This document shows positions 7,577 to 44,808 of a DNA stretch of 64,000 nt, piece by piece. The stretch's first letter is position 1. Every line of letters starts with the position of its first letter. Made by a program: the position numbers and the translations under genes. Origin of the DNA: Acanthopleura granulata. Taxonomy: Eukaryota; Mollusca; Polyplacophora; Chitonida; Chitonidae. The notes below the pieces were generated by a model. The model made no database searches, was not told where the DNA came from, and worked only from the letters and a program-made list of their open reading frames with translations. The DNA is taken from contig JABBOT010000011.1 in the NCBI GenBank assembly GCA_016165875.1, positions 14,072,408-14,136,407 on the forward strand, written 5' to 3'.

Positions 7577-7789
7577 GGTAGCATTTGTCCTTGTCCCGAA
7601 ACCGGACACAAGTGTGGAGCGATGCATTTAAAACGAATCCTGTGAGTCAATCCTGCGATTTATAACAGTTCGTGCAAATGTGAATGTGTGAGGATAATTG
7701 AGTTTGGCTGAATGGGGGATAAAATTGAAATTGCAACCTTGCAATTATAACGTGTGTAGAAAGTTTAAATTTACGTACATACGTATAAA

Positions 7790-8110
7790 TGTGTTAAATA
7801 TGCTCACAACACAGCACTATGAGTAATTCTAGGTTGCATTTAACATAATTTGTAGTTACTGTAATTTTTTTGTAAAACTGTCATTTTTTTAACGAATTGT
7901 GCTTAAGCCATGGGGCTAGGGGTCGCGTAGGTCGTTACTTCTTAAACACTTACATAACACTTATAACAATATTAAAGACTACGGCACAGGGAGTAAAAGC
8001 AGAGTAGAGACGACAGTGTGGTAGTTGGCAAATGGTCACACCTAACTGAGGTAACTGACAAGTTGTCGGATTTCACCCGTAACGTGTGACCAGTTTCTAA
8101 GCCGGCATAT
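7790..8110 (+). repeat. Dispersed repeat C, rearranged
   Basis: The left part (GAGTAATTCTAG ... TTCTTAAACACTTACA) is in reverse and the right part (GGCACAGGGAGTAAAAGCAG onward) is forward, so the copy is internally rearranged. Copy 2: 26796-27116. Confidence 0.7.
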
Positions 8111-10139
8111 ATATTCAGGGCTGTCATCTGTTTAACAATGCCCAGATAGGGTTATGAGGAATAATGATCATGGCCTATGTAAATAAACCGAATTAATACC
8201 ACAACTATATAAGAAAAGCAAAATTGATGCGCACGCTCAGCGGTAAAGTGCAACAAGATTATTTAAAACACAATTAAAAAAATAAACTTTCCCTGTTTTG
8301 TATCCACTATAGTTTACATAGAAAGAAAATTTTTGAAACCTGCCGACGAACAGCTTCTGTGAAAAAAATAAATGTGTATTTTTCTTTTTTCTTTTTGAGA
8401 GACCTTAAGATCCGGCGTATTTTAAATAAAATTCCTTGACGGTGGCTGTCGATGGAGAGAGAATTGCTCTCTGGTTTTGTCCTGGTAAACTAAAATAAGT
8501 CATGGGTCTCATGCAAAACAATTCCTCTTTAATTGTGCAGCTGTGATTGACAGACCTGTGGTTGGGGTTAATGTGCTGCTGTTGATAGGTCAGCCTTCAT
8601 GACATCTAGTGAAAACGGCAATGCAAAATGGACAGGCCACAGGAACTTGTATTTTCGAGCAGAATCCTGCTTTATGCAGTCATACCAAATGGAAATCAAA
8701 GAGAAATCATCCGAGATTATATATGTACAGCGTACTGTGTTAAACTACATTATCAAAGGAGAATTCTACTTCCCTCCTTCATTCCTGTGATAAGATTTAT
8801 GGCCAGGGAACAAAATAAAACCTCGCTAGGAGCATATACTCTCACACGCTATGCACCTTACAAATTGACCCAGGTTTGTCATTCAAGACAGACACAGACA
8901 AGCTTGTCATTACACGGAAATACTTCAATCGTTGGATAGCTACAACATGCCCGAAGTACTGCTGATGTAACGTTAAAACCCTCATCATTCATTCAACCTT
9001 TACTTACATTTATTACGAGAAGTACAGTAATCATGCTTTAATAGCTTAGTCTGTGCAACTATGAAGTTTATTTTCTTTTAGTGCCATTTACTGGCAATGC
9101 TATATATATACTATAAGTGGGATAATCCTCGTCCAGCTGCACGCGCAGTGCTGATTGCACCAGTGCTCGGAAGTTGTCTCCCTGTACATAGTATTTCCTC
9201 ATATATTATGCTGTTGCCCATATTTCAAAGATTACTCTAAAGAGTCTGGTACTGGGCATCTTTTACACAGCCATTTTGGGCTGATCTCCAAAACGTTAAT
9301 CTTCTTTACAAAGCAAAATATTTGAAACTGGGAGCTCAGATTTGGGTGCGCTCGCCGCATTTACATCACCACAGCATAAAATCAGCGGGCCAACAGTTTA
9401 TCGACTTGATGTATACCTGTATATTCCAGATTTCATGTACACCTGTATATTCCAGATTTGATGTATACAGGTATATTCCAGACTTTAACGTGTGTTGAAA
9501 CATTTAGACTAAAGCCAGAATTAAGTGAAACAGGCCCGAGGCTTTGTGAAATACGTCGGCTTAAAATACTCCATGAAGCGCTCAAAGGATGTACTAAATA
9601 ATCAATCGGATAATTAAAAACGTTAACTGTAATTGTTGCCAATTTTTGGCAGGGAATCCAGTACACTGTCTCATTTATTCTTTTTTTTGTAGCGCTGAAT
9701 CAAGTAAAGTTCATTTGTATTTGTATGGTTATTGCGTTATTTAGGGTACACCACATCGATCGACAATCTCTCACTGTGTCCAGCCGAATACAGTTATCTG
9801 TATCTGTGAATACAGTATTTACGGTACAGCGCATCCACGTGCACCTGTCGCGTCGGAAATAATACACGGTTTTATTAGCTCGGGAATTTCAAAATTTCCA
9901 CAACTATACCATGTATTGATCTAATAAAGGATTGAACTGTGCGGAAATAATCTAGCATAGTTTGTAAATAGCTTTCATATACAGTTGGCAAAGCCAGCAG
10001 TGCCATTTGCCTCCAGGCCACAGTCCAAAAACTGCGTGCATAGCCTATACAACACTCTAAGCTCGCAGCTCGGGTAATCTGACACAGGCAAGAGTCAAGT
10101 TCGACAGGTCAGCACAAGAGTTTCGACGTCGTCCTCTAC
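8111..10139. other. Upstream region of the EF-hand gene
   Basis: Contains the 25-bp units at 9404-9482 and two overlapping plus-strand frames of 63 and 103 codons (8599-8790 and 8628-8939). Both are unchanged in copy 2, but no domain is recognised, and high identity of the whole block explains the conservation. The EF-hand promoter must lie at the right end. Confidence 0.5.
9404..9482. repeat. Short tandem repeat, three 25-bp units
   Basis: Three imperfect units built on GATGTATACCTGTATATTCC followed by A; the third has CAGG for CTGT. The same array is at 28410-28488 in copy 2. Confidence 0.75.
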
Positions 10140-10187
10140 TAACACTTGTTGAGTGCAGGGCGAACAACTTGCTATAAGGTGTGCACG

Positions 10188-10352
10188 ATGTTTAAGTCCA
10201 AGCCCAAAACAAAGACGTTGTCTAAAGAGGAAACAAACGATTACGTGGCCGCTTTCGATGCATTCAAAGGCGATGACAACTGTCTGGATAGTCGAGAGTT
10301 CATATGTGTCCTCGTCGCCCTGGGGGTGGAGGGAGGCGAGGAAAGGGCTGAG
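10188..10352 (+). CDS. EF-hand gene exon 1, copy 1
   Basis: Codes residues 1-55: a Lys/Thr-rich N terminus and the degenerate first EF-hand. It ends in GAG followed by the donor GTAGGA, phase 0. A at -3 of the ATG gives a reasonable initiation context. The 5' untranslated start is not defined; I see no convincing TATA box just upstream. Confidence 0.87.
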
Positions 10353-13300
10353 GTAGGACCTATACAGACTCTCGTTTGTTTGTTTGTCTGGCAGATTTGC
10401 TGGGCCTATAGTTGTATACATATACCTCTGGTTGCCTGTTAGCCTACTGATGGCACGTCGTTGTCGTTGTTGTCCTGGTTTGTGAATAGCATAAATTATG
10501 TTGACGAGTAATTTATTAGCTTAATTTATTCATCATGCCCGTTTTACATATTGTGGCATAGATTAGTCGTTGAATGAATGGATCAATCCATCAATCTAGC
10601 GAATCAGATCATCAGGTCACCAGAGTCGGTCAAGACTATGGTAAGGCAGATTTGTCTTTTGTACCAAAATAATTGCACTATAACAGGGGAGTTTCGAGAT
10701 CGAACTCTGTTATCGCTAAACTCTGTTATCGGAAAATTCAGGAGCTGGACGTTTTTCCTAAAGTTAAGAAGCTTCTGACTGAAGGAGAGGTCGTTTTTAC
10801 CTACCAAACACGGTAAGACAGGTGATCGGTAAATTAAAATCAATAAAATTGCCTGACATTTTTGACAACTCACTTGACACAGTTGAACCCTTTTTACCTT
10901 CTACGACAAAAGAGTTCGAACTCGAAACGCCCTATTGTTTATAAAACAAAACGCAGTGCAGTGCAGGTTAAGTCGAGCGTATACAGATGAAAAGAATATG
11001 CCAATGTGCGGTGTGCATTTTATTTACGCTTGACTGCATAATGGGTTATGTTGTAAGAAAAGTCTTGACAGCTGGCCCTGTCTTCTTGACGCAGTAGGCC
11101 TGCGTAATGTGATGAACGTATGTCGCATGTGACGCGAGTTTTAGATTTCATACTATTTCTTATATATTAGCCAAATATTCCAGTGTCTCCGCACGTATGT
11201 CCCTGTGTTTACATTGATACTACAGGAGAACACACGCTGTCCGCCGCTGTTGTCGGTTGTTTGTATTGCTCGCGAGACAATATTTGTGTGATCTTACTTC
11301 ATGTCAGCTGGTATGCAGGCTTGGGTCGTGCAGAGCGCTCTGTCTAACTGGGCATAATGACATTTAACGACATGTGCTCGCCCATGTTATATCGTATACC
11401 TAAATGTTATATACATTGCACATGCATTTGAGCAATGCATGCCCCACTGCGCAGAAAAAAAATCCATTCCGTCGGCAGAAAGCCATGTAGACATCTGGAC
11501 AGATTGATGTCAATTTGCTAATTAACAGTGTGGCGTGGGGAGAATTGGATGCGGCAACATATACTGATGTCGCTATAAACAATACGATATGAGCTGCACA
11601 GCTACAAACAACAGGCTGCGGTGTAATTTGTGCACCTAACCATCAGGCCTTATATCAAATTCGTACATATCTATGCTCTTACCATAACTTTACCTATCCT
11701 CCCATTTTAAAGAGTAATGTTTGAAAATCCTGGCACAGTAATCGTTCTGATTTACAACACAAGTGGTCTAATCCCCATGTAGTGTCGAAATGTGTCTTTT
11801 ATGGTCAAAATAACTGTGGACGGGGCGTACTAACGACCGAAAATGTTAGATGGTATCCAGCTGGGAAGGTTTGTGTCAGAACTGGCTGAAGAAAGCTTTG
11901 TTTCAAGCACCAATCACCAATCACCAATCACCGTAGTCCAGGTGGGGGTCAGCGAGTCGGCCTTTCCAAGGTACTTGTACCTCAATAATGTTGTTAACAC
12001 CAGTGTGTGTGTTTTGAAATCCTAGTCTCGCTAAAGAAACGTGATTAAGGTTTATTTTTTTAACCATTTATTTATTTGTTTGATTGGTGTATTACGCGGT
12101 ACTCAAGACTGTTTCATTTATACGACGGCGGCCAGCATTATGGTGGGAGAAAACCGGGTAGAGCGCGGAGGGGGGGGGGGGGCTACGACCATCCACAGGT
12201 TGCTGGCTGACCTTCCCACGTGCGACCGGAGAGAACATGATTAAGAATACCTCATGCTCTATATGTTAATAATTGTGTCACGTGCCGATACATAAAAAAG
12301 ACCAAACGTTTTCAATGAAGTACCATCAAGCCGCTTCTCGCTCACTTGTAGCTAGGTCCTGGTGTTCTACAAATATGAACTCAACGTGTATAAGTACTGG
12401 TGTGGGTAGAGGACAAAAAAGGACTAAGGGGATTATTTCACCTTTCCCCAGTTATTAAACATGCCAACCCGTTGAAAAAATGTGGACACGCTACTAGATC
12501 AACTGACTTCCCTGTAGTAAACGTTTCAGACTGGCTTGCACTGTAGCTACATTGTACAACACCATATATCATGTATAGATTTCTTATGCGATATGGTTTC
12601 CAAACACAGTGTAGTGAATCTGGGGCTTCTGTGGCCGAGTGTTATCCTGCTATCGTGCTATTGCAGTACAGTGTCTCAAGTGCCTCTTCCAATGCGGTCG
12701 CTGAGAGTTCAAGTCCAGCTTAGGCTGGTTTCCTTTCCGGTCAAGAACGGAAAATCTTCCAGGTACATGTGGCTGACATGGCTTTCCCCACCATAATATT
12801 GGTGGCCGTCGTACACGGTTAGTGTTTTTGATTACGGCGTAATATATAAAAACTACAGCACAGAGAGTAAAACCAGAGCAGTGACGACAGTGTGATAGAT
12901 CGTAAATGGTCACACCTAACCGGTGAAATCCGGCCTCTTGTCAGTTTACTTCAGGTGAGTTTTTATTCTAACTGTTCATGTAAGTGTTTAAGAAGTAACA
13001 AATCACATCCACTCCCCTCCTCCAGCACTATGGCTTAAGCAGAATTAGGTAAAAACAATTGCAGTGATGCAATTTATTAGACGTCACTGGTCTGGAATTA
13101 CTCCTGTATTGTCACCACATTTACCACGTGTACACAACAACATGAAAACAATGCAAACTGGCGAGACCTCGGTGATACTTAGTCTACCAGTGGAATATCA
13201 GAGAGGAAGACCAATAAACAGATCAATGAATTAAGGATTTAATAAATAAATATAGAGAATTTAACGGTGATCAAGGACTTGGATATTTATATGTTTATTT

Positions 13301-16300
13301 ATTGGATTGGTGTTTTACGCCGTACTCTAGAATATTTCACTTGTACGATGGCAGCCAGCATTATGGTGGGAGGAAACCGGGCAGAGCCCGTAGGAAACCC
13401 ACGACCATCCAGAGGTTGCTGGCGGACCTTCCCACGTACGGCCGGAGAGGAAGCCAGCATGAGCTAGACTTGAACTCACAGCGACCGCATTGGTTTAGAG
13501 ACTTCTGGGTCATTACGCTGCGGTAGCGCGCTAACCAACAGAGCCACGGAGGCCCCGAGGCTTAGATACTGTGACAACTGTGAGTATGTGAAGAAACAGA
13601 CACAAACCGTGACAACACACAGAAATACAAGAAAACAACAATGACGGAATTCATCTGGCCATATTACCATACATGGTGGCATTTATTGAACTTAATCTTC
13701 CGTCTTTGGACGGGTCAGGAGCGGGGAACATAATCACGTGAAATGGGTAACAGTATGCCGCCATCTTAGGTCTGAATAATAGGAAATGACAAGTTATTCG
13801 ACATTCTTGCATACATTAGGTTTTGACTGCCAAGCTGTTACACTCTGGCTTTTCACATTTCGTACAATGGAAGTCAACTCCTCTCAAATTGTCACGTACC
13901 TTTTGTGTTGATCGTCGAATTTATATCTTGCACTGGCCTGTAGGGTGGTTGAGTGTGTACTATTATTAAACAGGAGAGGATAATTGCACCAAGTGAAAAT
14001 TCAAAATGCGATTTTAGGAGTTTATCTTGGGGTCCCACAAGAAAATAGAATTACCACTTGGTACTTGTTATGTTTACACATTTGTGTCAAAATGGCATTC
14101 TCCCGTACCAAAAACTAAGCATTGTGATTTGCTTTTAGAATTCGATCTTGGACTTTGATATAAGTGGGTTTGTGGAATTATCCCTTTACATGGTATAATC
14201 TGTATAACCCCAAGATTCTAACTGCGTAGTATTATTTGGTCGACCTAATTGCGGGATTTAACAAAACCGTATAACCTTGAAACAGTAATTTCATATTTTT
14301 CGAATGTTACAAATCATATAAAATGAAAATGTAGTTGTAGAAAAAATGGATGAAACAAATTCCATTCTGTCAATGCGCCTTGAAGTTGGCCGCTACTCTG
14401 TGTCATCCTCTAGAACATGGTGTATAATCAGTGTTAAATGAATAAGTGTATGACTAAGTAAATCTTGAACCAACCTAACTGACTGAATAGATAACTGAGT
14501 TACTAAATAAATACTTAATTTCCTAAATAACATACTAAGTAAACAAATAAATGAAATAATAAATAAATAAATTTAATAATAACCGTGTTTATCTCACATG
14601 TAAGCCTTTATCTGTGTGAGCATTGGCCAACTGTCAACATAGCTGTTATACATTTACACTTTCTGTGGGATAGTCCTTTATACTTGTTACTCTGTAAGAA
14701 CTTGTTTGGTAGTTGTCCTTTTCGGTAAAGGCGATACTGGCTTCTTTGAGAAAAAATGTTATCCTCGTCACTTTAAACGTCCCACACTGACAAAATCCAA
14801 TACCTGTCAATTTACAGTCCCGTGTCATACACCGTGTTGGAAATATTAACCGAGAATGTCTCTTTCTCTGCGAGCATTCTCGCTGGCCATCCAGTGCATT
14901 TGAATTACACGGTTTTAAATATTGAGAAGGTGGGATGGTGCCGGAGTCTGCAAAAGTGCAGTCTGGAGTTTTAATGCACAGGAAATAAAATTTGCATGGG
15001 TGGCATATTTGTCTGTGTTCACTCGATCATCACCTGATCAGTGAGGTCATACGTTCGAACTTGTGACGGTCCAACTTGTGGCGGTTCAGATGTGGTTTTT
15101 TAAGTTAGGAGGCCCTGCAGTTTCCAGGCGAAGTCAGGAGGTACTGCTGTTTTCTGGCGAAGTCAAGAGGTACTGCAATTTCCTGGGTTTGTTTTCCGGA
15201 CACCTCATTCGGTTTCCTCCACCTAAAGTCACGATTGTCTTTATTAAGGCGTTAAGCAAAAGTAACTAAGTAAATAAATAAAAAAAATGGATACCATACT
15301 GTTATGATTTATTTTCAGAGTATTTTGAGGAAAATCAATAAAAACCAAGATGCGAAGATTACAAAAATGGAATATTTGGACGCCATAAGACAACCGGGGG
15401 TAAACAACTCACAGTACGTATAAAAACTTATCTGCCACCAATATATGGTTTGCATAACTACACATCACACATGTCGTCTCTAGCGGTTTTCTCCAAGTCA
15501 TACAGCTAATCACCATATATGTAAACATGTTTTGAACATGGTATTAAATAACAATGATATAAGTAAATATATAAACACTTATAGTTTGTTGTGTAAACAG
15601 TGGCTTGTTATTCTCGTGTCAAAAACTGTTAACGGACCTGGTCACGAGATTCTGACTCAAGTCAGACGCAATTTTAACTTATGGTGTTATTCCTAAACTT
15701 AGATTTGGACATAAATGTTAGTTTGTATTTTTGTCATAGATTTTCCAAAACAAAATCTGAGCATGACAATACTAAGTCAGGAGATCCGGATCAGTACCAA
15801 TCTTATCGGGTCCGGTGATCCCAAAGACTTTAAAAATGGTACTTGTTGCTGCCTCGCGTGATGCTCAGTGCTGACAGGGTAGAGCAAGGAAACAAGATTG
15901 ATCGGCATGGTGTCAGTATAATGTGGCTGGATGGGGTGTCATATCTGGTGTCTTCGACATGGTGTTCCCTGGAGGCCGCAGTTTGGCGCTATGGACTCAT
16001 GGACCCCTGCCACAAGGAGATACAGTATATGTTCATACTAAAGACCCTTCGTCGCCATATAACTGAAAAAAAATGTTCAGCACGACGTAAAACCCTAAGC
16101 ATACATACATAGTATTGCAATAAAATTTCTCAAGGTAAGTCACAGTTTGAGTGCAGTAAACTGTTTGAACTTGACACTAAGTCAGACTTCAATCCAAGAT
16201 ACTTCTGTGAGTCTGAGGCCTAATCTCTCCTGTTTATTTTTGTTAACAAAATACAGAATCCGGAGGCTAAGAGAAGTATTCGACCAATTCGATCACGACA

Positions 16301-16455
16301 AGACCGGATATGCTTCCAACAGTGACGTCATCAACAAACTCCCAGATCTCGGGCTGACAGAAGCGGAAGTGAAAAAACAAATATTGGAACTGGACGAGAA
16401 CCGAGACGGCAAAATTGTATTCGAAGACTTCTTGAGAGTTCAGCTAAGAATCTGA
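10188..16455 (+). CDS. Four-EF-hand calmodulin-like protein gene, copy 1 (3 exons)
   Basis: Exons are 10188-10352, 15319-15413 and 16257-16455. Both introns are GT-AG and the phases (0, then 2) join cleanly into 152 codons plus TGA. The ATG is preceded by an in-frame TAA at 10140, which fixes the start. The protein has calmodulin/troponin C-like length and four helix-loop-helix units. Loop 1 (K27-E37) is one residue short and begins with Lys. Loop 2 (N62-E73) has Asn at position 1 and Ala at position 6. Loops 3 (D99-D110) and 4 (D133-D144) are canonical except for Asp instead of Glu at position 12. No signal peptide or membrane segment is visible, so it is probably cytosolic. It is likely a calcium-binding sensor or buffer with metal binding mainly in the C-terminal lobe; its partner is unknown. 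I cannot assign it to calmodulin, centrin or troponin C by name. An AATAAA lies 28 bases after the stop. Confidence 0.88.
12042..12245 (-). mobile_element. SINE family 1, 5'-truncated, with target-site duplication
   Basis: The (AAAT)n tail and the GCGTAA/ATAAGTGAAA body of the SINE are present in reverse; the tRNA-like head is missing. TGATTAAG flanks it at 12042-12049 and 12238-12245, an 8-bp target-site duplication. A G12 homopolymer interrupts the body. The second allele is at 31329-31533. Confidence 0.85.
12622..12845 (+). mobile_element. SINE family 1, diverged copy
   Basis: Head GGGGCTTCTGTGGCCGAGTG and B box GAGTTCAAGTCC are recognisable, followed by a poorly conserved body. It runs straight into a dispersed repeat (12846 onward) and lacks its own A-rich tail. 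Copy 2 equivalent: 31910-32133. Confidence 0.75.
12846..13120 (+). repeat. Dispersed repeat C
   Basis: One of the best copies, fused to the SINE on its left: AGAGTAAAACCAGAGCAGTG, ACCGGTGAAATCCGGCCTC, GTTCATGTAAGTGTTTAAG, CACTGGTCTGGAATTACTC. Lies in EF-hand intron 1. Copy 2: 32134-32410. Confidence 0.8.
13292..13560 (-). mobile_element. SINE family 1, full length
   Basis: On the minus strand it opens GGGGCCTCCGTGGCTCTG, reads through a tRNA-like A box (TGGCTCTGTTGGTTAGCG) and B box (GAGTTCAAGTC), then a conserved body and a TAAATA-rich tail. It lies in intron 1 of the EF-hand gene. The family is a tRNA-derived SINE widespread in molluscs; I believe it belongs with the MetaSINE/RUDI group but cannot verify this. 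Confidence 0.88.
13561..14999. other. EF-hand intron 1, middle part
   Basis: No exon or repeat family recognised except an AAAT-rich stretch at 14495-14575. Copy 2 lacks 28 bases (about 14813-14840). Confidence 0.6.
15000..15292 (+). mobile_element. Possible third SINE-like repeat, EF-hand intron 1
   Basis: Has a B-box-like GTTCGAAC (15053-15060), the phrase CGGTTTCCTCCACC, AAGGCGTTAAGC near the end and an (AAAT)n tail. Within it a 29-bp unit around CGAAGTCAGGAGGTACTG is doubled. Ends 27 bases before exon 2. Only one locus, so family status is inferred. Copy 2: 34261-34553. Confidence 0.4.
15319..15413 (+). CDS. EF-hand gene exon 2, copy 1
   Basis: Codes residues 56-86 plus two bases of codon 87, covering EF-hand 2. 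The acceptor is TTTTCAG and the donor GTACGT. It is too short to stand out as an open reading frame; it was found by joining phases between exons 1 and 3. Residue 79 is Arg here and Lys in copy 2. Confidence 0.87.
15787..16112 (+). mobile_element. SINE family 2, EF-hand intron 2
   Basis: Shares AAAATGGTACTTGTTGCTGC, GGTGTCAGTATAATGTG and GTCATATCTGGTGTCTTCG with the elements at 21462 and 54316. The tRNA-like head is mostly missing here. Ends in AACTGAAAAAAAA and ACGACGTAAAACC. I recall this motif set as a common mollusc repeat. Copy 2: 35040-35351. Confidence 0.75.
16257..16455 (+). CDS. EF-hand gene exon 3, copy 1
   Basis: Completes codon 87 as Gln and codes EF-hands 3 and 4 to the TGA stop. 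The acceptor is AATACAG. The open frame runs upstream of the acceptor without a stop, so a naive ATG (near 16147) would add about 36 intronic residues. Identical protein sequence in copy 2. Confidence 0.88.
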
Positions 16456-16482
16456 CCAGACAACAAAAAAGCTTGAAGCGAA

Positions 16483-16488
16483 AATAAA
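16483..16488 (+). promoter_or_regulatory. Candidate polyadenylation signal AATAAA of the EF-hand gene
   Basis: AATAAA 28 bases beyond the stop codon. Very close to the stop, so a longer 3' UTR using a later AATAAA (for example near 17698) is also possible. Confidence 0.4.
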
Positions 16489-18070
16489 TTGACTGAGTAT
16501 GAAATATATTGCTCAGTGAAGTTGGAACCAAACACCTCAGCTAGAATCAGTTTGGGTGAATGACGCTGAAGATTGCGAGTCAAAGAACTTGCTTTCTGCG
16601 TGGAGTTTTTCTCCTATAAGATACGTGGTATTATTGACGAATAACAATATACATTTGTCTTGAAACCACATCGGAAATTAAACTCGTACCAGTATAAATG
16701 TATTGTCTTTCTGAACGTGAATCAGGACTTGTCTCGCGACACTTACGTTTGACCATGTTCTCGTGTTACAGATTATAAACTTGGCTGTCTGTGATGACAC
16801 CACCACCAGTCTGAATTTCTGTGACACTATGCAGAGATATTTTTGCACTGTTGTTGTATTTTGAGCCTTTTTCACGACTTTGCTAGGGGAGAAATGCGAG
16901 AGGCGGTGATCTGTATGGAGAGATTTCATTATTTCTGTGACACGTTAGCATAAATGAGTGCAAGAACGACCATGGTTGAAAACATATGCCTTTGACAATG
17001 TAAATACAGTTCAATGCTTTTGCAAACGGGCTGGGCACCCATAAGAAAATGATTTACAGGACATTTGGATAATAGAGCTCGGTATTTGGTACTCTTCTAT
17101 GTGTACATGTATATGAGTTGAGATGGTCTTGGGACTACAATGACAATCTGGAGTAAAGCCTTAATGAGCAATTCCTTTTAATGTGCTCGTTTAGTTCATT
17201 GCCTACATATGTTTGTATGTTTTTCGATTTCGTGTATATTGGTATTATGGATATTTTATTCTGTGTGGGGATTTTAATATTGGGTTATTAATCTTTGAAA
17301 GTGTTCTCTAAAACCTTTTTTTTATGAGATCAGCAGTCGTTTAGCTTTCGGAATGTATACACATAAGGTCAAATTTGTTAACTATTATGGGCTACAGAAG
17401 GCAAAATGTTAAATTCTGCTCACGAGGGGTTCTAGTATTCTTAAGCAAATTGTATACACTGCATCATGCGCCGTCTTCAATGCATGAAACCTAAATATGC
17501 ATCTTCAGCTGTTTAGCGTTCATCAAATCCAGACGAGAGGAAAACAAATTACTGGATAAAATCATATCTCCTTAAGTACTCTGTCATGAGATCACGTCAA
17601 GTGCTTTGTTTATTTATTTCAATCAAATTTTCTTCAGGTTTTATTATGTTTTTAATATTTATATACAACTGGTATGGGTTCTTTTATATTTTGATCAAAT
17701 AAATTACTCTTACGGTTATTTGTCATGCTTGAGTTTCTTGAATACAGAACGTATCAAAACATAAAGCTGAGGAAGGCACACTGCTCATTTTTTGTCTTTG
17801 CGGTTCCGATGGAAATTTTTTCTCAAACATGTACTGGCTAATAAAGAATTGGTGGTTTACTCGGGTTACGGTAGGTTCCCCCGCTTATTAATCAGCCTGC
17901 CCTGACAATGTTCATGACACTGTTCACTGTTCACACTGCCTGCCCTGTTCATGAGTATTTCACTTACACGATGGGGACGGACATTAACCACTTCGGCCAC
18001 GGAGAACCCCTGAGTCCCACCCCTCCTCTCCTTGAATATTTAACATATACGACCGTGGCCAGCACTTGGA
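16489..18070. other. Downstream of the EF-hand gene
   Basis: AT-rich; may include a long 3' UTR. A 45-bp stretch near 17038-17083 is missing from copy 2. Weak SINE scraps appear after 17940. Confidence 0.5.
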
Positions 18071-18353
18071 TATTTATTTATTTTCTTATTTATTAAATTG
18101 GGGTTTTACGCCGTACTCAAGAACATTTCACTTGTACGATGACGGCCAGCATTGTGGTGGGTGAAAACTGGGGAGAGCCCTGGGAATACGACCACCATCC
18201 GCAGGTTGCTGGCAGACCTTCTCACGTAAGGCCGGAGAGGAAGCCAGCATGAGCTGGACTTGAACTCATAGCGACCGCATTAGTTTAGAGACTTCTGGGT
18301 GATTACGCTGCGGTGACGAGCTATCCAACAGAGGCACGGAGGCCCCCCCCCCC
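18071..18353 (-). mobile_element. SINE family 1, near full length
   Basis: Reverse-oriented tail, body and tRNA-like head, the head ending in a C-rich homopolymer (18343-18353). The A box is damaged (AGCTATCCAACAGAGGCACG in the plus sense). Degenerate SINE scraps also occur just left of it at about 17940-18065. Copy 2: 37261-37543. Confidence 0.83.
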
Positions 18354-19062
18354 GATGTTATATACTGTAGCGGAAAAACTTTTCAGTCATTTTCAAGTAA
18401 ATAAATAAACTGATTGATTGATCGACTGATTGATTGATTTACGTGAAGATTATATCACTTCTTTGAAGTCGGGCAGGTTTATCAAATTAGGCCGCTTTAA
18501 AGTCCCTGGGAAGCTGTCACAGTAGCATGCGTCACAAGCCTGAACAGCATACTTCTGAAGACGATCACCCATCGGGCGTTCAAAGGTACGCGCTGGCATG
18601 TGCAAAAACTCAATGGTCCTTGTTTCTTCCTTGTTTCAGGCATTGTGTACTTCCAAAGATCTAAGTTGTAGTGACAGTTTGATAGTTGTTGTCAGGCTGT
18701 CTATTTAGAGTCTGTGTTTCATACCTGGTACACCTGCTGTCAACAAAGGGAAGTATATAGACCTGCATTTCACAATGCGTGAAAGACGATGTTTTATTCG
18801 CATGTGTCGGGAAAGAGTTTATGAGGTCATTGGCTCGAATCCAGCCTTGGTTGCGAAATTCTGAGCTCAGTATTATACTCTTGGCGTTATAATGGACGAA
18901 ATGCTGATGGCGATCAGACGTTTTTAACAAACGTTCTCAAGTATATATTCCTGGTGTCTATGCTTAAGCAAAGAAGTAATTGCCGACAGTGCTAGGGCCC
19001 TTTTAACATAACGCACATAGTGACTGTACGTCATATATAAATACCACTTGTACAGGTAATGA
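18354..19062. other. Intergenic
   Basis: A short TGAT-rich run (18408-18440) and otherwise nothing recognised. The minus-strand frame here is 89 codons (18661-18930) in copy 1 and 141 codons (37687-38112) in copy 2 because of a small indel, which argues against coding function. Confidence 0.6.
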
Positions 19063-19812
19063 CATAATGCCGACAGGGCTGAAGCAATTTAGCAAAACAC
19101 ACTCAGCATGTTATATAGAGCCAATGCAGAGCGACAGTGCTAGTACTGTTAAGCGTGACAGTGTCACTCTATACTCAACCAGAAAAGAGAAACACCAAAA
19201 GAGAATAAAAAAACTATTCAGCTAACGCCGGGGGAAAATAGCTGGCTCCTCATAATGCCGACAGGGCTGAAGCAATTTAGCAAAACACACTCAGCATGTT
19301 ACATAGAGCCAATGCAGAGCGACAGTGCTAGTACTGTTAAGCGTGACAGTGTCACTCTATACTCAGCCAGAAAAGAGAAACACCAAAAGAGAATAAAAAA
19401 CTATTCAGCTAACGCCGGGGGAAAATAGCTGGCTCCTCATAATGTCGACAGGGCTGAAGCAATTTAGCAAAACACACTCAGCATGTTACATAGAGCCAAT
19501 GCAGAGCGACAGTGCTAGTACTGTTAAGCGTGACAGTGTCACTCTATACTCAGCCAGAAAAGAGAAACACCAAAAGAGAATAAAAAAACTATTCAGCTAA
19601 CGCCGGGGGAAAATAGCTGGCTCCTCATAATGCCGACAGGGCTGAAGCAATTTAGCAAAACACACTCAGCATGTTATATAGAGCCAATGCAGAGCGACAG
19701 TGCTAGTACTGTTAAGCGTGACAGTGTCACTCTATACTCAGCCAGAAAAGAGAAACACCAAAAGAGAATAAAAAACTATTCAGCTAACGCCGGGGGAAAA
19801 TAGCTGGCTCCT
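19063..19812. repeat. Tandem array, four units of 187-188 bp
   Basis: Units start at 19063, 19251, 19438 and 19626 with CATAATGCCGACAGGG (one unit has a T for C) and end in GCTGGCTCCT. They differ by only a few bases. Each contains the near-palindrome GTGACAGTGTCAC. No open frame spans a unit. Copy 2 carries a single unit. Confidence 0.95.
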
Positions 19813-35100: not shown

Positions 35101-35694
35101 TGCTCAGTGCTGACAGGGTAGAGCAAGGAGACAAGATGGATCGGCCTGGTGTCAGTATAATGTGGCTGGATGGGGTGTCATATCTGGTGTCTTCGACATG
35201 GTGTTCCCTGGAGGCCGCAGTTTGGCGCCATGGACTCAGGGACCCCTGCCACAAGGAGATACAGTATATGTTCATACTAAAGACCCTTCGTCGCCATATA
35301 ACTGAAAAAAAATGTTCAGCACGACGTAAAACCCTAAGCATATATACATAGTATTGCAATAAAATTTCTCAAGGTAAGTCACAGTTTGAGTGCAGTAAAC
35401 TGATTGAACTTGACACTAAGTCAGACTTCAATCCAAGATACTTCTGTGAGTCTGAGGCCTAATCTCTCCTGTTTATTTTTGTTAACAAAATACAGAATCC
35501 GGAGGCTAAGAGAAGTATTCGACCAATTCGATCACGACAAGACCGGATATGCTTCCAACAGTGACGTCATCAACAAACTCCCAGATCTCGGGCTGACAGA
35601 AGCGGAAGTGAAAAAACAAATATTGGAACTGGACGAGAACCGAGACGGCAAAATTGTATTCGAAGACTTCTTGAGAGTTCAGCTAAGAATCTGA
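29194..35694 (+). CDS. Four-EF-hand calmodulin-like protein gene, copy 2 (probable second allele)
   Basis: Exons are 29194-29358, 34580-34674 and 35496-35694, with the same splice sites, phases and 152-residue product as the gene at 10188-16455. The only coding change I see that alters the protein is AGA to AAA in exon 2 (Arg79 to Lys). Intron 1 differs by a 290-bp insertion (30971-31260) and several small indels. Because this whole block abuts the N run and repeats the first block, I take it as the other haplotype of the same gene, not a paralogue. Confidence 0.87.
30971..31260. other. 290-bp insertion present only in copy 2
   Basis: Copy 1 passes directly from CCAAG to GTACTTGTACCTC at 11970; copy 2 carries about 290 extra bases here. 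No terminal inverted repeats, A-rich tail or tRNA-like boxes are evident. It is in intron 1 of the EF-hand gene. Whether it is a gain here or a loss in copy 1 cannot be told. Confidence 0.85.
31329..31533 (-). mobile_element. SINE family 1, 5'-truncated, copy 2
   Basis: Same insertion and TGATTAAG duplication as 12042-12245; the internal G homopolymer differs in length and neighbouring bases. Confidence 0.85.
31910..32133 (+). mobile_element. SINE family 1, diverged copy, copy 2
   Basis: Equivalent of 12622-12845 in the second haplotype block, with a few substitutions. Confidence 0.75.
32581..32849 (-). mobile_element. SINE family 1, full length, copy 2
   Basis: Same insertion as 13292-13560, with the same flanks, in the second haplotype block. 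Confidence 0.88.
35040..35351 (+). mobile_element. SINE family 2, copy 2
   Basis: Equivalent of 15787-16112, with about 24 bases missing at its left edge and several substitutions. Confidence 0.75.
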
Positions 35695-37260
35695 CCAGAC
35701 AACAAGAAAGCTTGAAGCGAAAATAAATTGACTGAGTATGAAATATATTGCTCAGTGAAGTTGGGACCAAACAGCTCAGCTAGAATCAGTTTGGGTGAAT
35801 GACGCTGAAGATTGCGAGTCAAAGAACTTGCTGCGTGGAGTTTTTCTCCTATAAGATACGTGGTATTATTGACGAATAACAATATACATTTGTCTTGAAA
35901 CCACATCGGAAATTAAACTCGTACCAGTATAAATGTATTGTCTTTCTGAATGTGAATCAGGACTTGTCTCGCGACACTTACGTTTGACCATGTTCTCGTG
36001 TTACAGAGTATAAACTTGGCTGTCTGTGATGACACCACCACCAGTCTGAATTTCTGTGACGCTATGCAGAGATATTTTTGCATTGTTGTTGTATTTTGAG
36101 CCTTTTTCACGACTTTGCTAGAGGAGAAATGCGAGAGGCGGTGATCTGTATGGAGATATTTCATTATTTCTGTGACACGTCAGCAGAAATGAGTGCAAGA
36201 ACGACCTTGGTTGAAAACATATGCCTTTGGCGATGTAAATACAGTCCAATGCTTTTGCAAACAGGCTGGGCAGTATTTGGTACTCTTCTATGTGTACATG
36301 TATATGAGCTAAGATGGTCTTGGGACTACAATGACAATCTAGAGTAAAGCCTTAATGAGCAATTCCTTTTAATGTGCTCGTTTAGTTCATTGCCTACATA
36401 TGTTTGTATGTTTTTCGATTTCGTTTATATTGGTATTATGGATATTTTATTCTGTGTGGGGATTTTAATATTGGGTTATTAATCTTTGAAAGTGTTCTCT
36501 AAAACCTTTTTTTATGAGATCAGCAGTCGTTTAGCTTTCGGAATATATACACATATGGTCAAATTTGTTAACTATTATGGGCTACAGAAGGCAAAATGTT
36601 AAATTCTGCTCACGAGAGGTTCTAGTATTCTTAAGCAAATTGTATACACTGCATCATGCGCCGTCTTCAATGCATGAAACCTAAATATGTATCTTCAGCT
36701 GTTTAGCGTTCATCAAATCCAGACGAGAGGAAAACAAATTACTGGATAAAATCATCTCTCCTTAAGTACTCTGTCATGAGATCACATCAAGTGCTTTGTT
36801 TATTTATTTCAATCCAATTTTCTTCAGGTTTTATTATGTTTTTAATATTTATATACAACTGGTATGGGTTCTTTTATATTTTGATCAAATAAATTACTCT
36901 TACGGTTATTTGTCATGCTTGAGTTTCTTGAATACAGAACGTATCAAAACATAAAGCTGAGGAAGGCACACTGCTCATTTTTTGTCTTTGCGGTTCCGAT
37001 GGAAATTTTTTCTCAAACATGTACTGGCTAATAAAGAATTGGTGGTTTACTCGGGTTACGGTAGGTTCCCCCGCTTATTAATCAGCCTGCCCTGACAATG
37101 TTCATGACACTGTTCACTGTTCACACTGCCTGCCCTGTTCATGAGTATTTCACTTACACGATGGGGGGGGACATTAACCACTTCGGCCACGGAGAACCCC
37201 TGAGCCCCACCCCTCCTCTCCTTGAATATTTAACATATACGACCGTGGCCAGCACTTGGA

Positions 37261-37543
37261 TATTTATTTATTTTTTTATTTATTAAATTGGGGTTTTACG
37301 CCGTACTCAAGAACATTTCACTTGTACGATGACGGCCAGCATTGTGGTGGGTGAAAACTGGGGAGAGCCCTGGGAATACGACCACCATCCGCAGGTTGCT
37401 GGCAGACCTTCTCACGTAAGGCCGGAGAGGAAGCCAGCATGAGCTGGACTTGAACTCATAGCGACCGCATTAGTTTAGAGACTTCTGGGTGATTACGCTG
37501 CGGTGACGAGCTATCCAACAGAGGCACGGAGGCCCCCCCCCCC
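37261..37543 (-). mobile_element. SINE family 1, near full length, copy 2
   Basis: Equivalent of 18071-18353. Confidence 0.83.
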
Positions 37544-38244
37544 GATGTTATATACTGTAGCGGAAAAACTTTTCAGTCATTTTCAAGTAAATAAATAAAC
37601 TGATTGATTGATCGACTGATTGATTGATTTACGTGAAGATTATATCACTTCTTTGAAGTCGGGCAGGTTTATCAAATTAGGCCGCTTTAAAGTCCCTGGG
37701 AAGCTGTCACAGTAGCATGCGTCACAAGCCTGAACAGCATACTTCTGAAGACGATCACCCATCGGGCGTTCAAAGGTACGCGGTGACATGTGCAAAAACT
37801 CAATGGTCCTTGTTTCTTCCTTGTTTCAGGCATTGTGTACTTCCAAAGATCTAAGTTGTAGTGACAGTTTGATAGTTGTTGTCTATTTAGAGTCTGTGTT
37901 TCATACCTGGTACACCTGCTGTCAACAAAGGGAAGTATATAGACCTGCATTTCACAATGCGTGAAAGACGATGTTTTATTCGCATGTGTCGGGAAAGAGT
38001 TTATGAGGTCATTGGCTCGAATCCAGCCTTGGTTGCGAAATTCTGAGCTCAGTATTATACTCTTGGCGTTATAATGGACGAAATGCTGATAGCGATCAGA
38101 CGTTTTTAACAAACGTTCTCAAGTATGTATTCCTGGTGTCTATGCTTAAGCAAAGAAGTAATTGCCGACAGTGCTAGGGCCCTTTTAACATAACGCACAT
38201 AGTGACTGTACGTCATATATAAATACCACTTGTACAGGTAATGA

Positions 38245-38431
38245 CATAATGCCGACAGGGCTGAAGCAATTTAGCAAAACACACTCAGCATGTTACATAG
38301 AGCCAATGCAGAGCGACAGTGCTAGTACTGTTAAGCGTGACAGTGTCACTCTATACTCAGCCAGAAAAGAGAAACACCAAAAGAGAATAAAAAACTATTC
38401 AGCTAACGCCGGGGGAAAATAGCTGGCTCCT
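38245..38431. repeat. Single unit of the 188-bp repeat
   Basis: The counterpart of the four-unit array at 19063-19812. Flanking sequence on both sides matches, so the difference is purely in unit number. Confidence 0.93.
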
Positions 38432-39959
38432 TCTTAACAGACCAGTCGAAATGTATTTAGCAGCACTTTCCCCCCAAAATGTTCTTTCAAGTCTCGTTTG
38501 CCGCCAGAAGTCGTTCCTGAATATTTAATTAATTACACACTTACACCTCACACTTTATTCAATTCCAGTCTGGCTTCCTGCTATATACATGACATGTCAG
38601 TTTGCTTGATATAAGAATAAGGTCATATCGGTTACTAGAATTTATATAACAAAGACGTAATCCAGAGTGATGCGTTATAAGTTCAGGATCACTAAACCAC
38701 TAAGCCCCTAAATTCAGCGTTGTTGCCATTGGCTGACTAACACGTGGATAATTCTGCTATCTCGGGGTAAATTAAATTCCACCGAATTTTTGAAACAATG
38801 AGCAAGGTGTATCCCAAAGAGAGGAATTCCTGATTGGATCATACACTTTCTCCCTGGAAAAAAAGCTGTTTGTTAACGAATTTTCTGTTTTGTCGTAGAC
38901 AAAGGTAAATAAAGAAACTAAATCCACTTATTCAGGGCAAACTGATTATAAGCCAGTGGGGAATTATTATTTCAAATATGAGCATGCTGAATGGCTGGAA
39001 AATTCGGGAAACATTAATTCAAGCAGCGTTATAGCAGAATGTTTTTTTTTTATTTTCTTTATTTTCGATGGCGAAAAATAAGAATTAAAAAATCTATGTC
39101 CCTTTCGCGATTCCAGTATCCGGAGCCGTAAAAGTGACATGGTGCAAAAGAAAAATATTGGCAATAAAAAAGTTCACCGTGTGTGTTTGTGTGTCGTGCA
39201 CACGGCATTTTCAACAAGTCGCGCTCTTGAGATAACTGACCAATGAAAACGCTACAAGTCTACGTTGCCGTCCCAGGCATTTTAGTCCGTGTTCAGCTGT
39301 GGACAAGGGTGCACGTGTATTAGTGTGATAGAGCAACATCAGCTAATTTATGATAAGAGAGTATCAATTTATATCCGCCATTATAATACAATATCTGTCC
39401 TGATTTTTTTTATTGGTCAATTATTTCGACAGCATGACGAAAAAAACAACATGCATAGAATTTATTTTCTGTTTATACTTTTTTCGTCGTGTTACTTTTA
39501 CAACTCCATACGTAAGTGCTAGAGTTTGGAGTTTTCATGTCTTTATCTGGTGGCGGTCACAAAAACACCGTGATAAGTCAAATAGTAGTACGTAAAGAAT
39601 TCATTAAAATTTCCGCTTTTTCTGGCTTTCGCGTAGAAAAGGGAAGATACTCTTCCGCAGATTTGTGCTTCTCGAGATTCTTCATGAAGTGTATTGAGTT
39701 ACGTCCCCTCAACCACTTCAACGCGATGCAGTACCCATGCATACATTTGTGTATTTGAATGAAATTGGCCACGTGTGCTGCGTATATTTATTTGGTTGTG
39801 GTCTGATACACTACTTTCAAATATTTCACTTGTAACACAGTGCCAGGTTTGGGAATGGAGCAATGCAATAACAGTCGAAACGCAAACTGCGAGAGGTAGA
39901 TGCTGGAGTATATGATATTGTTGGAATAGGCTTGATGGAGTGTAATGTTGGTATGTGTG

Positions 39960-40260
39960 CTTGGGTTTTACGTCGTTTTTTCAGCAAATTTTCAGTTACA
40001 TGGCGGCGAGAAGTACTGAGAATGCCGCCAAATTGTTGCCGCCAGTGCAACATGCTGCCGAAGACACCAGACATGACACCCCAGCCAGTCACATTATACT
40101 GACACCGGGCCGACTAGTCATGTTTCCTTGCTCTAGCCTGTTAATACTGAGCGCCAAGCGGGACAACAACAAGTACCAGTTTCAAAGTCTCTGGTTTGAC
40201 CCGACCCGGGATTAATCCCTGATCTCGGAGTGCATTGACAGTGACCCTTTAGACAAATGA
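39960..40260 (-). mobile_element. SINE family 2, copy 2
   Basis: Equivalent of 21462-21770. Confidence 0.75.
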
Positions 40261-41151
40261 ACCAGTCAGATGCCTTATGCAATGCCAGTATCTATGGACG
40301 ATCTGACAAAGTAATTCTCGAGTGAAACTTAAAACTTAATACGCAGTGTGAATGCATGTGGCCTCAGGGCGTCAAATTTATGTATACATATGCCTTTACG
40401 TAGCACTTGTTCAGTGTCTTCAATTTCATCTCTTATAATCGGAAAAAAGCGCTTAAAGAAGATTTTAAATTCTGACATAAACCATTATGGCGTTGTGGAA
40501 TCGCGCATAATTATGATTGTATGTTCATGCAGCCAGCTGGGTATGTAGAGTTACAAGAAAAAATTGAACACTTGTTCAATGACCTAATATGATAAAAATG
40601 AGAAATGAGAAGTTGTGTTTTAGATCAGTGATATTTGTTGTACACTTGAGAATTTGCTACACTAAACGATCTTTTCTTGGCCGCGGGATTTATCACTGCA
40701 TAATCACTGCGGTATTAAAAGTGACGTCGGTGTGGACAACGGTCTTTGTGATATGCTGAAGCTATGAGGTGTTTTCACTGTAAAATAAAGGTCATAATTG
40801 CCTTGTAATGAACCATGCCAAGGCACCTCCCATACTCCACGATATGGCTGTGATACTGTCGACATGGCGTTCAGCCGTAAACTCGCTAACCAATCCCGTC
40901 CCTCTTCTGACTTCGTGAGCTGGTCGGTTTGAAAGAGTCCGATCACACCACCGAAAACACAATCTGCCGGAGTCAGCTCCTTACCCAGGTATACCTGACT
41001 AGGCTATGCACCGAACTGTGCCATTTGGTCAGGCTCTTCTCGCACAAGAAACACAAGCACCGTCATCGTTCTTGCAGTGTTCAAATGGTTTCACTCTTTC
41101 AGTGCAGACATTTATTTTCTTGAATGAAACTTCCACTACATATATGACAAT

Positions 41152-41242
41152 GTCCTCCCACCATAATGCTGGTCGCCGTCGTATAAGTGAAATATTCATG
41201 AGTACGACATGAAGCATAAATGAAGAAAATAAATAAATCAAA
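41152..41242 (+). mobile_element. SINE family 1, 3' fragment, copy 2
   Basis: Equivalent of 22917-23007. Confidence 0.78.
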
Positions 41243-41322
41243 TATGACAAGTCTTCAATGACACACTTATTTGCTATCACCTTTTAATGGAGACCTTAAC
41301 TCAATAAATTATACATGCACAT

Positions 41323-41514
41323 AATTATGCGGTTTCCTCTCCGGTCGTCCGTGGGAAGGTTGCCAGCAACCTGCGGATGGTAGTGGGTATCCCCCGGGCT
41401 CTGCCTGATTTCCTACCACCATAATGCTGGCCGCCGTCGTATAAGTGAAATGTCCTTGAGTGCGACGTAAGACACCAATGCAAAAATAAATAAATAAATA
41501 AACAAATTATGCGG
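41323..41514 (+). mobile_element. SINE family 1, 5'-truncated, copy 2
   Basis: Equivalent of 23088-23279 with the same flanking duplication. Confidence 0.87.
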
Positions 41515-41794
41515 AACAGCGTTAACAAAAACCGATTCTACCTGCAATACTTAAGTACTTTTACAGTTTTTAAAATGAGTATTTGATTGACTTGCTGTTT
41601 TAGTTGAGGGAAAATTACTAGATAAATAGGGTGGAAATGAGTAACGTACACTTTTTCGAATCGTCTCCCCTGGGTCATCACAGCCGTAATATCATCGTAT
41701 GAAATATATGTAAACTCCACATACATCACGTGTTTCTCATATAACGAGTGCTTAACCACCAAATAAAGCGACTGTGGAGGTAAAACCTTTGTCG

Positions 41795-42415
41795 AAATAC
41801 TACACTTATTGTTGTAAAAGCACCGACAAATGAAAAACAGCAGTGGGCACGGTACGCCGACAATGGTTTTAATATCCAACTCCCTGACCAGGTGCAGCTT
41901 TCCAGGGCGGACAGGTTGACAATAACGTGCGTTATGCCGACCTGGCGATGTATGTTTCACTCCTCGGAAATATACTGAAAGTCACATTTAGGGTAAACTG
42001 GAATGAAATGTACGTCATCGCACAAAGACACAACGAGTGATGCAAGTTCCAAAAGAACAAAATAACACGTGGTCACAAAGTGCTGCTAACTGGAAAATGG
42101 AGGACAAAATGACGTATGTCAAATGTCATGAAGGCCGATATCTCCAAATCCCACAAAATCCTTCTTAGTGGAGAGAGTAAATACGACTGCTCTCAAGTGG
42201 AGTAAAAGACTGAGAGCTTAACAACCTCATCGCTCATATTTATAGACTAAGTTCTGGATAGTTTGATCGTGAACATGTTTACAATATGCGTACATCTTTC
42301 CAGAATGTACGCTTTATGTACAATGACACCAAACTGTTACCCACAGAAGCCTCGAGAACAGGCGATCTGAATTCCAGTACTGGCAGAGACCTACACAGAG
42401 GGATAATGTAGGTCA
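41795..42415 (-). repeat. Dispersed repeat D, partial copy, copy 2
   Basis: Equivalent of 23560-24180. Confidence 0.8.
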
Positions 42416-44808
42416 GACACTGACCCGGTTAGCGCAAAAACAAATGAAAAAAAATGTAATGAAATATTTAACAGACAGGGTTGGTAACGGTTGATTAAAT
42501 ATCCCCGATATTGTACGTACATATACACTTTGTGTAATTCTAGACCAGTGATGCCTAATAAATTACATTTAACATCACTGTAGCTTTTTAACCCACTTCT
42601 GCTTAAACCATGGTGTTAGGGGAGTGTAAGTTGTTACTTATTAAACACTTGCATGAACTGGTAGAATAAAACCCAAACTGAGGTAAACTGACAACAGGGC
42701 GGGTTTCACCAGTAACGTGTGGCCATTTGCCAACTATCACACTGTCGTCGCTGCTCTGTTACTTTCTGTGCTGTAGTCTTTTATATTGCATTCACATTTT
42801 CCGTAAATAATCAGACAATCCCTGCTGACCATGATCCTTAATTTAAGCTGACAAGCCTTGGGCTGTTTTAATAGCTGCCACTTGAAAGCCAGTTTATGCT
42901 GATTTGGCACTAGATTTAAGGATTCATCGTATCCTGGCACTACTCTGTTGTCTGCTTCCGCTAAAATAACTAGTGTCTGTCGCATACGTGGAATATTCTT
43001 GAGTATTTGATAAAACACTTATGTAAAAAAAAATAGGAGGAGATTTAAAAATGATTTCAAAAACAACCTAAGCAAACATCCGTTAACTCAGAGTGCACAG
43101 TAAAGTGAGGGCAAGCAAGTAATCACTGTTACGCAGTTGCGTTGGTGAAATCCGTGATCTAATGCGGACGCGGAGATATTAAGCTGTCATTGGTCAATAA
43201 TACTGATATCGAGTAGATGTAATGCATACAGGTTCTTCACACTCTCCAAGGAAACGAAGGACGCAGAAAGGTTCGTTGACAGCTTCCATACATACAGAAA
43301 TTAGTTTACCTGGCAATTGAAATACAAAATACAATACAATACAAATATGATTTTCTATAAGCGCATATTTCACAAAGAAAACCCTTGAAGGTTAAACAAC
43401 AAATCCTTAGCTGAAAATAGGAATTTAATAAAATCTTTTTACATTTTACACTGGCTGAGTCTTATTCAGGTGTACTTAAATGATTTGGTGGGATGATTGG
43501 CAGGAACTACAGTTATTTAGTTAGTTACTTTTTTACTTCTTTAGTATCGAGGCAGTCTAAACCGCTCACTAACCCTGGCTTGTCTTTTGTATGATTTTAA
43601 TAAAATAGTACAAACAATGCCAATGCCTTCATTCCCGTTTCAGTTTTGTTTACGCCTTTACAGTCTTTAATCATCTGACTTGCAACGCTTGTTTGCAAGG
43701 TCAAAAAGTGTGACCCACATCCATGTAACAAAAAAATTCCACAAGTGAATCTGTTTTACAATTGCCCTATATATGCTCTGTTATTCACATACTATTATCC
43801 ACGTATTTCACTCATTCAGATCATTTCTTCTCGATCACGTGCTCAGCTATTTCTAGGTCAAGCAACACCGTATTTTGATTAAGTCTTTGTACAGAAACAT
43901 CCATATCAATATCCAAGCACGTGATATCAGTATGACCTGGTATGACCTGGAAGACTTAATTCATCGTTTGATCCTGGTACACGATGACGTCACACATCCG
44001 TCCTGCAGTCAGTGAATGTGTAATAACAGGTCTCATCCTCTCCAGCCGCTGGACTTTGCACCCGGTTTAGCCGTGCTTTGACTGACAGGTGTCACTAACC
44101 CTAAATCGCTCCGCTATAGATCAACTTGTTTTCACCGACAATTTGTAACAGTTGTTAACTTCGCATTTTGTCAAGTTCTGGAAAATAACCGGACGGAAAA
44201 TTCCCGTTTTGGGCTGGGGCTTCGTGTTCACGTGATGTAAAATTACAAATGCGTAACCAGTGCCGTGTTCTCGAAAAGTCTTACACAGTGTTAGGTTTTT
44301 CTTTTACGCTCATCAGATTTTGGTGCCGTACACATATAAAAATGCCAGACAACAGTACATATCTCAGAGTTTGTACACCTTCTTTAGGAAATGTTTTCAC
44401 TTCGGGAAAAATGCAAATAGGCCGTCCGAAATTTGCGATATTATAAGTTGACACCAAGTTAGCCAGCGTCAGTCTTTCCATTTTAAAGACATGCATGTAA
44501 TAGTTAATAGTTATTATGGAATGAAAGTTAATTGATATTGTGTAATAACAATTCAACAATGCCATGTTAATTGTCAACATCATGTTTCCAGTACAAGCCA
44601 GGTCAGAACTTGGGATACTCCAATGATTTCTTCACCAACAACATTTCTGCGCACAGGGGGGATACCCGTTTTGATATGTTGAGAAAATTGCCAAGAAATA
44701 TAAATGAGACGGAAATAAATCTAACTAATAGAAGAACATAATTAATAACCCACTGAAATAAGTCAATGAGAAATGGTCTTATTACTACCTTTTAACCTGA
44801 TTGTTTAA

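Follow-up and report, generated by a model that had tools for sequence, protein, structure and literature searches.

In the chiton Acanthopleura granulata, a block of 18–19 kb carrying a calmodulin-like EF-hand gene appears twice in succession within the window (the whole stretch of 64,000 nucleotides that was analysed), and the question is whether the animal has two copies of this locus or whether the assembly has printed one locus twice. We conclude, with a probability of about 0.92, that the apparent second copy is not real but a false (heterotype) duplication created where a scaffold was joined.

Structure of the duplicated block

Self-BLAST aligned the two copies collinearly in a chain of six main pieces with 97.5–99.5% identity. 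The block comprises the following parts:

7577–26569, + strand: copy 1 (18,993 bp), collinear with copy 2 and ending 0 bp from the N run; probably the right-hand end of the left contig, from one haplotype
26570–26582, no strand: gap of 13 N, by which Bionano Solve marks overlapping contigs (PMC7649008, PMC7238635, PMC7902669, PMC10234399)
26583–44808, + strand: copy 2 (18,226 bp), delimited by alignment to copy 1; probably the left-hand end of the right contig, from the other haplotype

Position 26583 aligns with 7577 and position 26569 with 44808, and homology reaches the N run from either side at a distance of 0 bp. These 13 N are the sole non-ACGT run in the window; they occupy the position of the junction between the copies, and a sequenced junction is absent. 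Outside the block, homology stops within ordinary sequence, without a gap. A previous sequence-only reading had described both copies as meeting at the 13-N run and the outer edges, 7577 and 44808, as passing into unique sequence at ordinary bases, and self-BLAST reproduced both observations with exact coordinates. Its further argument, that a genuine tandem duplication would show a sequenced junction, was too strong. Assembly graphs branch at repeat edges, and the contigs of a true tandem duplication may likewise end where its copies meet. The gap position alone is therefore no proof of an artefact, and the absence of a sequenced junction is compatible with a true duplication.

We also considered unequal exchange between flanking repeats, as a repeat at 5776–6364 is 76–77% like the segments at 23638–24219 and 41873–42454. 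This was rejected because edge 7577 lies 1.2 kb past the first of these repeats and edge 44808 lies 2.4 kb past the last, so that the repeats are not the crossover points. Among the matches listed there is also one in the opposite orientation, from about 7072–7160 (71% over 93 columns).

Only one other N run, of 20,583 N, is found in 264 kb, and its flanks (30 kb each) have no mutual match of at least 95% over 500 bp. As gap-free controls, 22 of 40 random positions were kept, while 18 were dropped for an N run of at least 13 within 19 kb. Seven of the 22 were crossed by a match of at least 95% over 500 bp, owing to local duplications downstream: gap-free local duplications with 90–98% identity are present in the next 200 kb, which shows that this genome does undergo local duplication. 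Finding a short duplication that spans a given point is therefore not unusual here; an 18-kb collinear overlap that reaches a gap from both sides stands out.

Differences between the copies and the gene they carry

Global alignment paired 17,916 bases, of which 17,737 are identical and 179 differ (1.0%; 96 transitions and 83 transversions), together with 23 indels totalling 1,387 bp. Seven indels are at least 20 bp long and ten are of 1–2 bp, with five of these ten adjoining homopolymers of at least 5. The opening 2,151 aligned bases contain no difference, a run that was matched in 0 of 20,000 uniform redistributions of the differences, and a single substitution falls before base 10623. Copy 2 thus opens with 2.15 kb of identical sequence before divergence sets in, and beyond this start the copies are about 1.2% divergent. 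At the right-hand ends, differences lie 23 and 44 bp from the edge. The main features of the comparison are:

7577–9727 = 26583–28733, + strand: identical start tract of 2,151 bp (global alignment)
19063–19812 in copy 1 and 38245–38431 in copy 2, + strand: 188-bp tandem repeat, with four units in copy 1 versus one unit in copy 2 (self-BLAST and alignment)
20820–20955, + strand: 136 bp absent from copy 2; this piece overlaps a 25-bp repeat (alignment)
22273–22523, + strand: 251 bp absent from copy 2, with a private DLE-1 site; no target-site duplication seen
30970–31259, + strand: 290 bp absent from copy 1, with a private DLE-1 site; no target-site duplication seen

Mobile-element insertion was considered as a source of the large indels, and no target-site duplications were seen. 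The 290-, 251-, 136- and 44-bp pieces have no second copies in the window, except for the short repeat at the 136-bp piece.

The gene was modelled in both copies as follows:

10188–10352 (copy 2, 29194–29358), + strand: exon 1 of the calmodulin-like EF-hand gene (gene model with splice signals and frame checked; match in its own genome)
15319–15413 (copy 2, 34580–34674), + strand: exon 2, which carries R79K (gene model)
16257–16455 (copy 2, 35496–35694), + strand: exon 3 with the stop codon, encoding an EF-hand pair (gene model and Pfam)
29194–35694, + strand: the three-exon EF-hand gene of copy 2 (gene model), very probably to be counted as a second allele

Between the copies, one of 459 coding bases differs, and this gives R79K in exon 2. 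The scattered substitutions and clean indels that had been reported for introns and intergenic DNA are indeed present, but their distribution is uneven, given the identical start, and coding sequence is affected too.

In the encoded protein, PF13499 (53.3 bits, cut-off 30), PF13405 (45 bits, cut-off 25) and PF00036 (32 bits, cut-off 25.4) scored above their cut-offs, while PF13833 scored 25.7 bits, under its cut-off of 28. A search of the assembly (606,523,666 bases in 87 sequences) with the protein matched the exons of these two copies and, beyond them, a single paralogue exon at 56%; neither this query nor a 270-bp piece of the block's end found a third close copy in the whole assembly. The best protein match, 84% identical, comes from Liolophura sinensis, a member of the chiton subfamily Acanthopleurinae, and a second match (90 aa, 76% over 36% of the query) covers exon 1 only. 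Rfam at gathering scores gave no matches and ARAGORN no genes; Pfam matched none of 10 stop-to-stop frames, taken from the 22 of at least 110 aa, and the exon 3 frame had no match in a phage collection.

The 13-N gap and the alternatives

According to published descriptions, where two contigs overlap on the optical map, Bionano Solve writes them one after the other with a spacer of 13 N, "thus duplicating the region", and such overlaps are usually allelic duplications (PMC7649008, PMC10234399). The same meaning of 13 N is given in PMC7238635 and PMC7902669. For example, 4,734 overlaps were reported in sweet corn after BioNano scaffolding, and 4,316 scaffolds were reported as merged when the flanks of 13-N gaps were joined (PMC7902669). 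The A. granulata genome paper describes an assembly of 606.9 Mb in 87 scaffolds from a single male, scaffolded by Bionano Solve v3.4 with BssSI and DLE1 maps, with a heterozygosity of 0.653% from k-mers. One published table lists 5,849 gaps for this assembly (PMC11068029), and passages of PMC12005716 are silent on the matter.

The locus has the features of such a join in an assembly scaffolded with Bionano Solve: a gap of exactly 13 N, homology up to the gap, and label sites in register in both copies. Of the label sites, 7 DLE-1 and 3 BssSI are in register. Each copy shares 7 of its 8 DLE-1 sites and has one private site, while for BssSI 3 of the 4 sites in copy 1 and all 3 in copy 2 are shared, leaving one private site in copy 1. 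The map alignment presumably showed an overlap at this gap. Against this reading, 13 N might also be inserted between contigs that abut and whose gap is estimated at slightly below zero.

The divergence is allele-like, 1.0% over 17,916 bases versus the published 0.653%, although a value about 1.5 times the genome mean counts against an artefact. Large indels and differences in repeat number are usual between alleles. From the kind and amount of difference, the two sequences are probably two alleles of one animal. We propose that the left contig would end within this locus and the right contig would begin within it, each representing a different haplotype, with their ends overlapping by about 18–19 kb and left unmerged. 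Bionano Solve would have set both contigs on the same stretch of the optical map, detected the overlap and, by its rule, written contig 1, 13 N and contig 2, so that the shared region would be printed twice. A filter for the redundancy of whole contigs would presumably not catch long contigs that overlap in this way only at their ends. The sequence-only reading had likewise proposed overlapping contig ends with different alleles, and this idea is now backed by the published 13-N rule, the use of Solve, the single specimen and the heterozygosity of the genome. The calmodulin-like gene should, in all likelihood, be counted once, the region being present once per haplotype in the real chromosome.

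The strongest alternative, itself improbable, is a real, young tandem duplication of two copies, peculiar to this chiton and about 1% divergent, whose freshly converted, identical start of about 2 kb broke the contigs at the junction before their ends were joined with a minimal gap. Since graphs branch where a shared tract ends, the identical 2,151 bp could have caused a break at the junction, but 2.15 kb is short for nanopore reads and the branch should therefore have been resolved; the right-hand ends, with their differences so close to the edge, have no long shared tract at all. An identical start inside a pair that is otherwise about 1.2% divergent would moreover require gene conversion. 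While the gap-free local duplications nearby (90–98% identical) fit a tandem origin, no repeat was seen at the edges to mediate unequal exchange (on the right flank, among the matches listed), and the 13-N mark denotes an overlap in the published descriptions (PMC7649008, PMC7238635, PMC7902669, PMC10234399).

It is very unlikely that the copies are two genuine paralogous loci from different places, both real and not in tandem, with the right contig set here by the fit of its label pattern. Paralogous regions and repeats are named among the causes of 13-N gaps (PMC10234399), yet the copies are collinear throughout the overlap, with 99% identity and allele-like indels, the two assembly-wide queries found no third close copy, and the Liolophura protein represents a single sequence from one contig. 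Least credible of all is a homotype false duplication, in which the same haplotype was assembled twice with read errors: the identical start and the 5 of 10 short indels beside homopolymers would suit it, but 179 substitutions and seven indels of at least 20 bp, including 290 bp and three 188-bp units, are not read errors.

Significance and comparison with known systems

As biology, a false duplication of this kind is an ordinary artefact. The copy pair probably shows about 18 kb of two alleles in phase. Judging from this one case and the published rule, a 13-N run in the A. granulata assembly is likely to mark an unmerged overlap, and genes beside 13-N runs can be inspected from the sequence alone before studies of gene families, copy number or paralogues. 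BUSCO duplication of the assembly at the genome level is 0.7% (PMC11068029), which counts against the artefact reading in so far as errors of this type are not widespread among conserved genes.

Among known proteins, the closest counterpart is LOC135479600, an uncharacterized EF-hand protein of L. sinensis with EF-hand Pfam domains listed. The window's protein is 84% identical to it along its whole length; it differs from LOC135479600 at the N-terminus and ends 3 residues earlier.

The locus resembles the joins that Bionano Solve makes with 13 N at overlaps in hybrid scaffolds, as described with BiSCoT (PMC7649008), in its order of contig 1, 13 N and contig 2, in a shared end of several kb, usually allelic, that is printed twice, and in enzyme label sites common to both ends; no difference was seen in the sequence comparison. 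It also resembles the heterotype false duplications in assemblies of the Vertebrate Genomes Project (PMC8081667, PMC9516828; Ko et al.), in which an assembly gap separates the pair within a single scaffold, the divergence is allele-like, a gene is printed twice and the duplication starts at a boundary between identical and divergent sequence.

The duplicated block and its differences

The window contains a single run of N, 13 bases long (26570-26582), and two collinear copies of one block lie directly against it.

Features of the duplicated block
7577-26569: copy 1, 18,993 bp, directly before the N run
26583-44808: copy 2, 18,226 bp, directly after the N run
7577-9727 and 26583-28733: identical tract, 2,151 bp at the start of the copies

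These block coordinates had been put forward by the sequence-only reading, and self-comparison and alignment confirmed them to the base. The inner limits of homology are the gap itself, to the base, and the outer limits fall at ordinary bases. In a global alignment, 17,737 bases match and 179 differ (1.0%; 96 transitions and 83 transversions), and 23 indels sum to 1,387 bp. We interpret the duplication as an artefact, an unmerged allelic overlap, at a probability of roughly 0.92.

The largest indel (563 bp) amounts to three 188-bp units of a tandem repeat, which has four units in copy 1 versus one in copy 2; a 290-bp stretch is found in copy 2 only, and stretches of 251 bp and 136 bp are found in copy 1 only. 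Seven of the 23 indels measure at least 20 bp, while 10 are short (1-2 bp), half of these (5/10) adjoining homopolymers. The differences are clustered: the initial 2,151 aligned bases carry none, a run that was never reached when the differences were redistributed uniformly 20,000 times. By arithmetic from the alignment, the initial 3.0 kb of the pair holds one substitution and the rest is about 1.2% different. Candidate explanations of the identical tract are a homozygous tract, gene conversion, or reads shared at the contig end.

The window also carries a dispersed, unclassified repeat family of SINE-like size (13274-13556, 18061-18346, 23092-23265 on the minus strand, 46390-46614, and 61547-61811 on the minus strand; up to ~290 bp, ~80-87% alike). 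Minisatellites at 46628-46995 and 58592-58938 both have a 26-bp unit, with differing consensus sequences.

Heterozygosity and the calmodulin-like gene

The assembly totals 606,523,666 bases in 87 sequences; the genome paper puts it at 606.9 Mb (87 scaffolds; PMC7850002), and a table published later at 606,536,932 bp (87 sequences, 5,849 gaps, 10.2% N; PMC11068029). The sequenced animal was a single male with an estimated heterozygosity of 0.653% (PMC7850002). The local difference of 1.0% is above this mean, as expected where an assembler left alleles unmerged. Copy 2 starts within the identical tract and then enters a divergent one. According to the VGP paper, Purge_Haplotigs left partial false duplications at contig boundaries in place (PMC8081667); a whole-contig filter would also be expected to leave the overlap described here.

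Both copies carry a calmodulin-like EF-hand gene, for which a whole-assembly protein search (E up to 0.001; 47/47 candidates scored) returned seven matches; six are exons of the gene itself, three per copy, and the seventh belongs to a paralogue.

Exons found in the assembly
10188-10352, 15319-15413, 16257-16455: copy 1, predicted gene model
29194-29358, 34580-34674, 35496-35694: copy 2, predicted gene model
G000:C20:2991258-2991458 (locus L027, on another scaffold): paralogue exon, 56% identity to residues 87-152 of the calmodulin-like protein

With the overlap counted a single time, the gene would therefore be single copy, in agreement with the sequence-only reading. A 270-bp piece of the block end had no place in the assembly beyond its two in the window. 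The predicted product has 152 residues with EF-hand domains, and the reading frames are open in both copies, differing at 1 of 459 coding bases (R79K). When the C-terminal 66 residues were compared with solved structures, the top-scoring chains (best 60 of 386) were calmodulins or chains carrying calmodulin. A search of ~5.8 billion proteins yielded two matches among 45 candidates, the better being an uncharacterized protein of Liolophura sinensis, a chiton of the subfamily Acanthopleurinae (84% identity, full length; one sequence, one contig), which has K at the position of the R79K difference, as does copy 2. Duplication of BUSCO genes in the proteome is high (17.2% in the first gene set, PMC7850002; 22.0% in the later table, PMC11068029), which the authors ascribed to redundant gene models; in the genome it is 0.7% (PMC11068029).

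Local duplications and rival explanations

The window and the next 200 kb contain two N runs, the 13 N and a run of 20,583 N that is probably a sized optical-map gap. Across the latter, 30 kb on either side gave no match of at least 95% over 500 bp. Such matches were found across 7 of 22 gap-free control positions, reflecting gap-free local duplications downstream.

Features of scaffold G000:C11, which carries the window
14257225-14277807: long gap, 20,583 N
~14178714-14187603 (window start + 106306 to 115195; loci L007-L008): gap-free tandem array, period ~2,355 bp
window start + 69406..74686 and + 98796..104065: inverted pair, no N run between, 5.3 kb, 97.1%

The best pair in the array (6.5 kb, 98.0%) is the longest of the other duplicated pairs near the window; the inverted duplication is prolonged by another 0.95 kb, and further gap-free duplications lie downstream. 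Local duplication is thus not foreign to this genome, which keeps alive the explanation of a true tandem duplication with contigs broken at the junction. The earlier claim that such a duplication would show a sequenced junction was too strict, since an assembly graph branches at the edges of shared tracts, and the 2.15 kb of identity at the start could form one. However, 2 kb is little compared with the length of nanopore reads, the copies already differ at 23 and 44 bp from their right-hand edge, and the gap bears the 13-N overlap mark; we regard a tandem duplication as improbable. The pattern of differences is beyond what read errors can produce, but can arise from two alleles or two young paralogues. 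A misplaced paralogue is very improbable, and a same-haplotype duplication, which would leave to read errors more than they can make, is scarcely credible. A limited literature search, in terms that did not name the locus, gave no published report of this duplication.

The 13-N join

The interpretation as an unmerged allelic overlap was not only supported but sharpened: a 13-N gap is the overlap mark of Bionano Solve. According to its genome paper, the assembly was scaffolded with Bionano Solve v3.4 on BssSI and DLE1 maps (PMC7850002). Seven DLE-1 and three BssSI sites lie in register in the overlap, counted with what we take to be the recognition sequences of these enzymes; private sites are one DLE-1 per copy, each within a private indel, and one BssSI in copy 1.

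For contigs with common labels, the BiSCoT paper describes the Bionano tool as writing contig one, a 13-Ns gap, and contig two, "thus duplicating the region", and regards the regions doubled in this way as usually allelic duplications (PMC7649008). Three plant genome papers link 13-N gaps to overlapping contigs (PMC7238635, PMC7902669, PMC10234399), one of them naming high heterozygosity, repeats, paralogous regions or assembly errors as possible causes (PMC10234399). We identify the join as a typical 13-N overlap join written by Bionano Solve, an artefact of a known kind: the gap has the same length, and the sequences on its two sides overlap with their common label sites in register.
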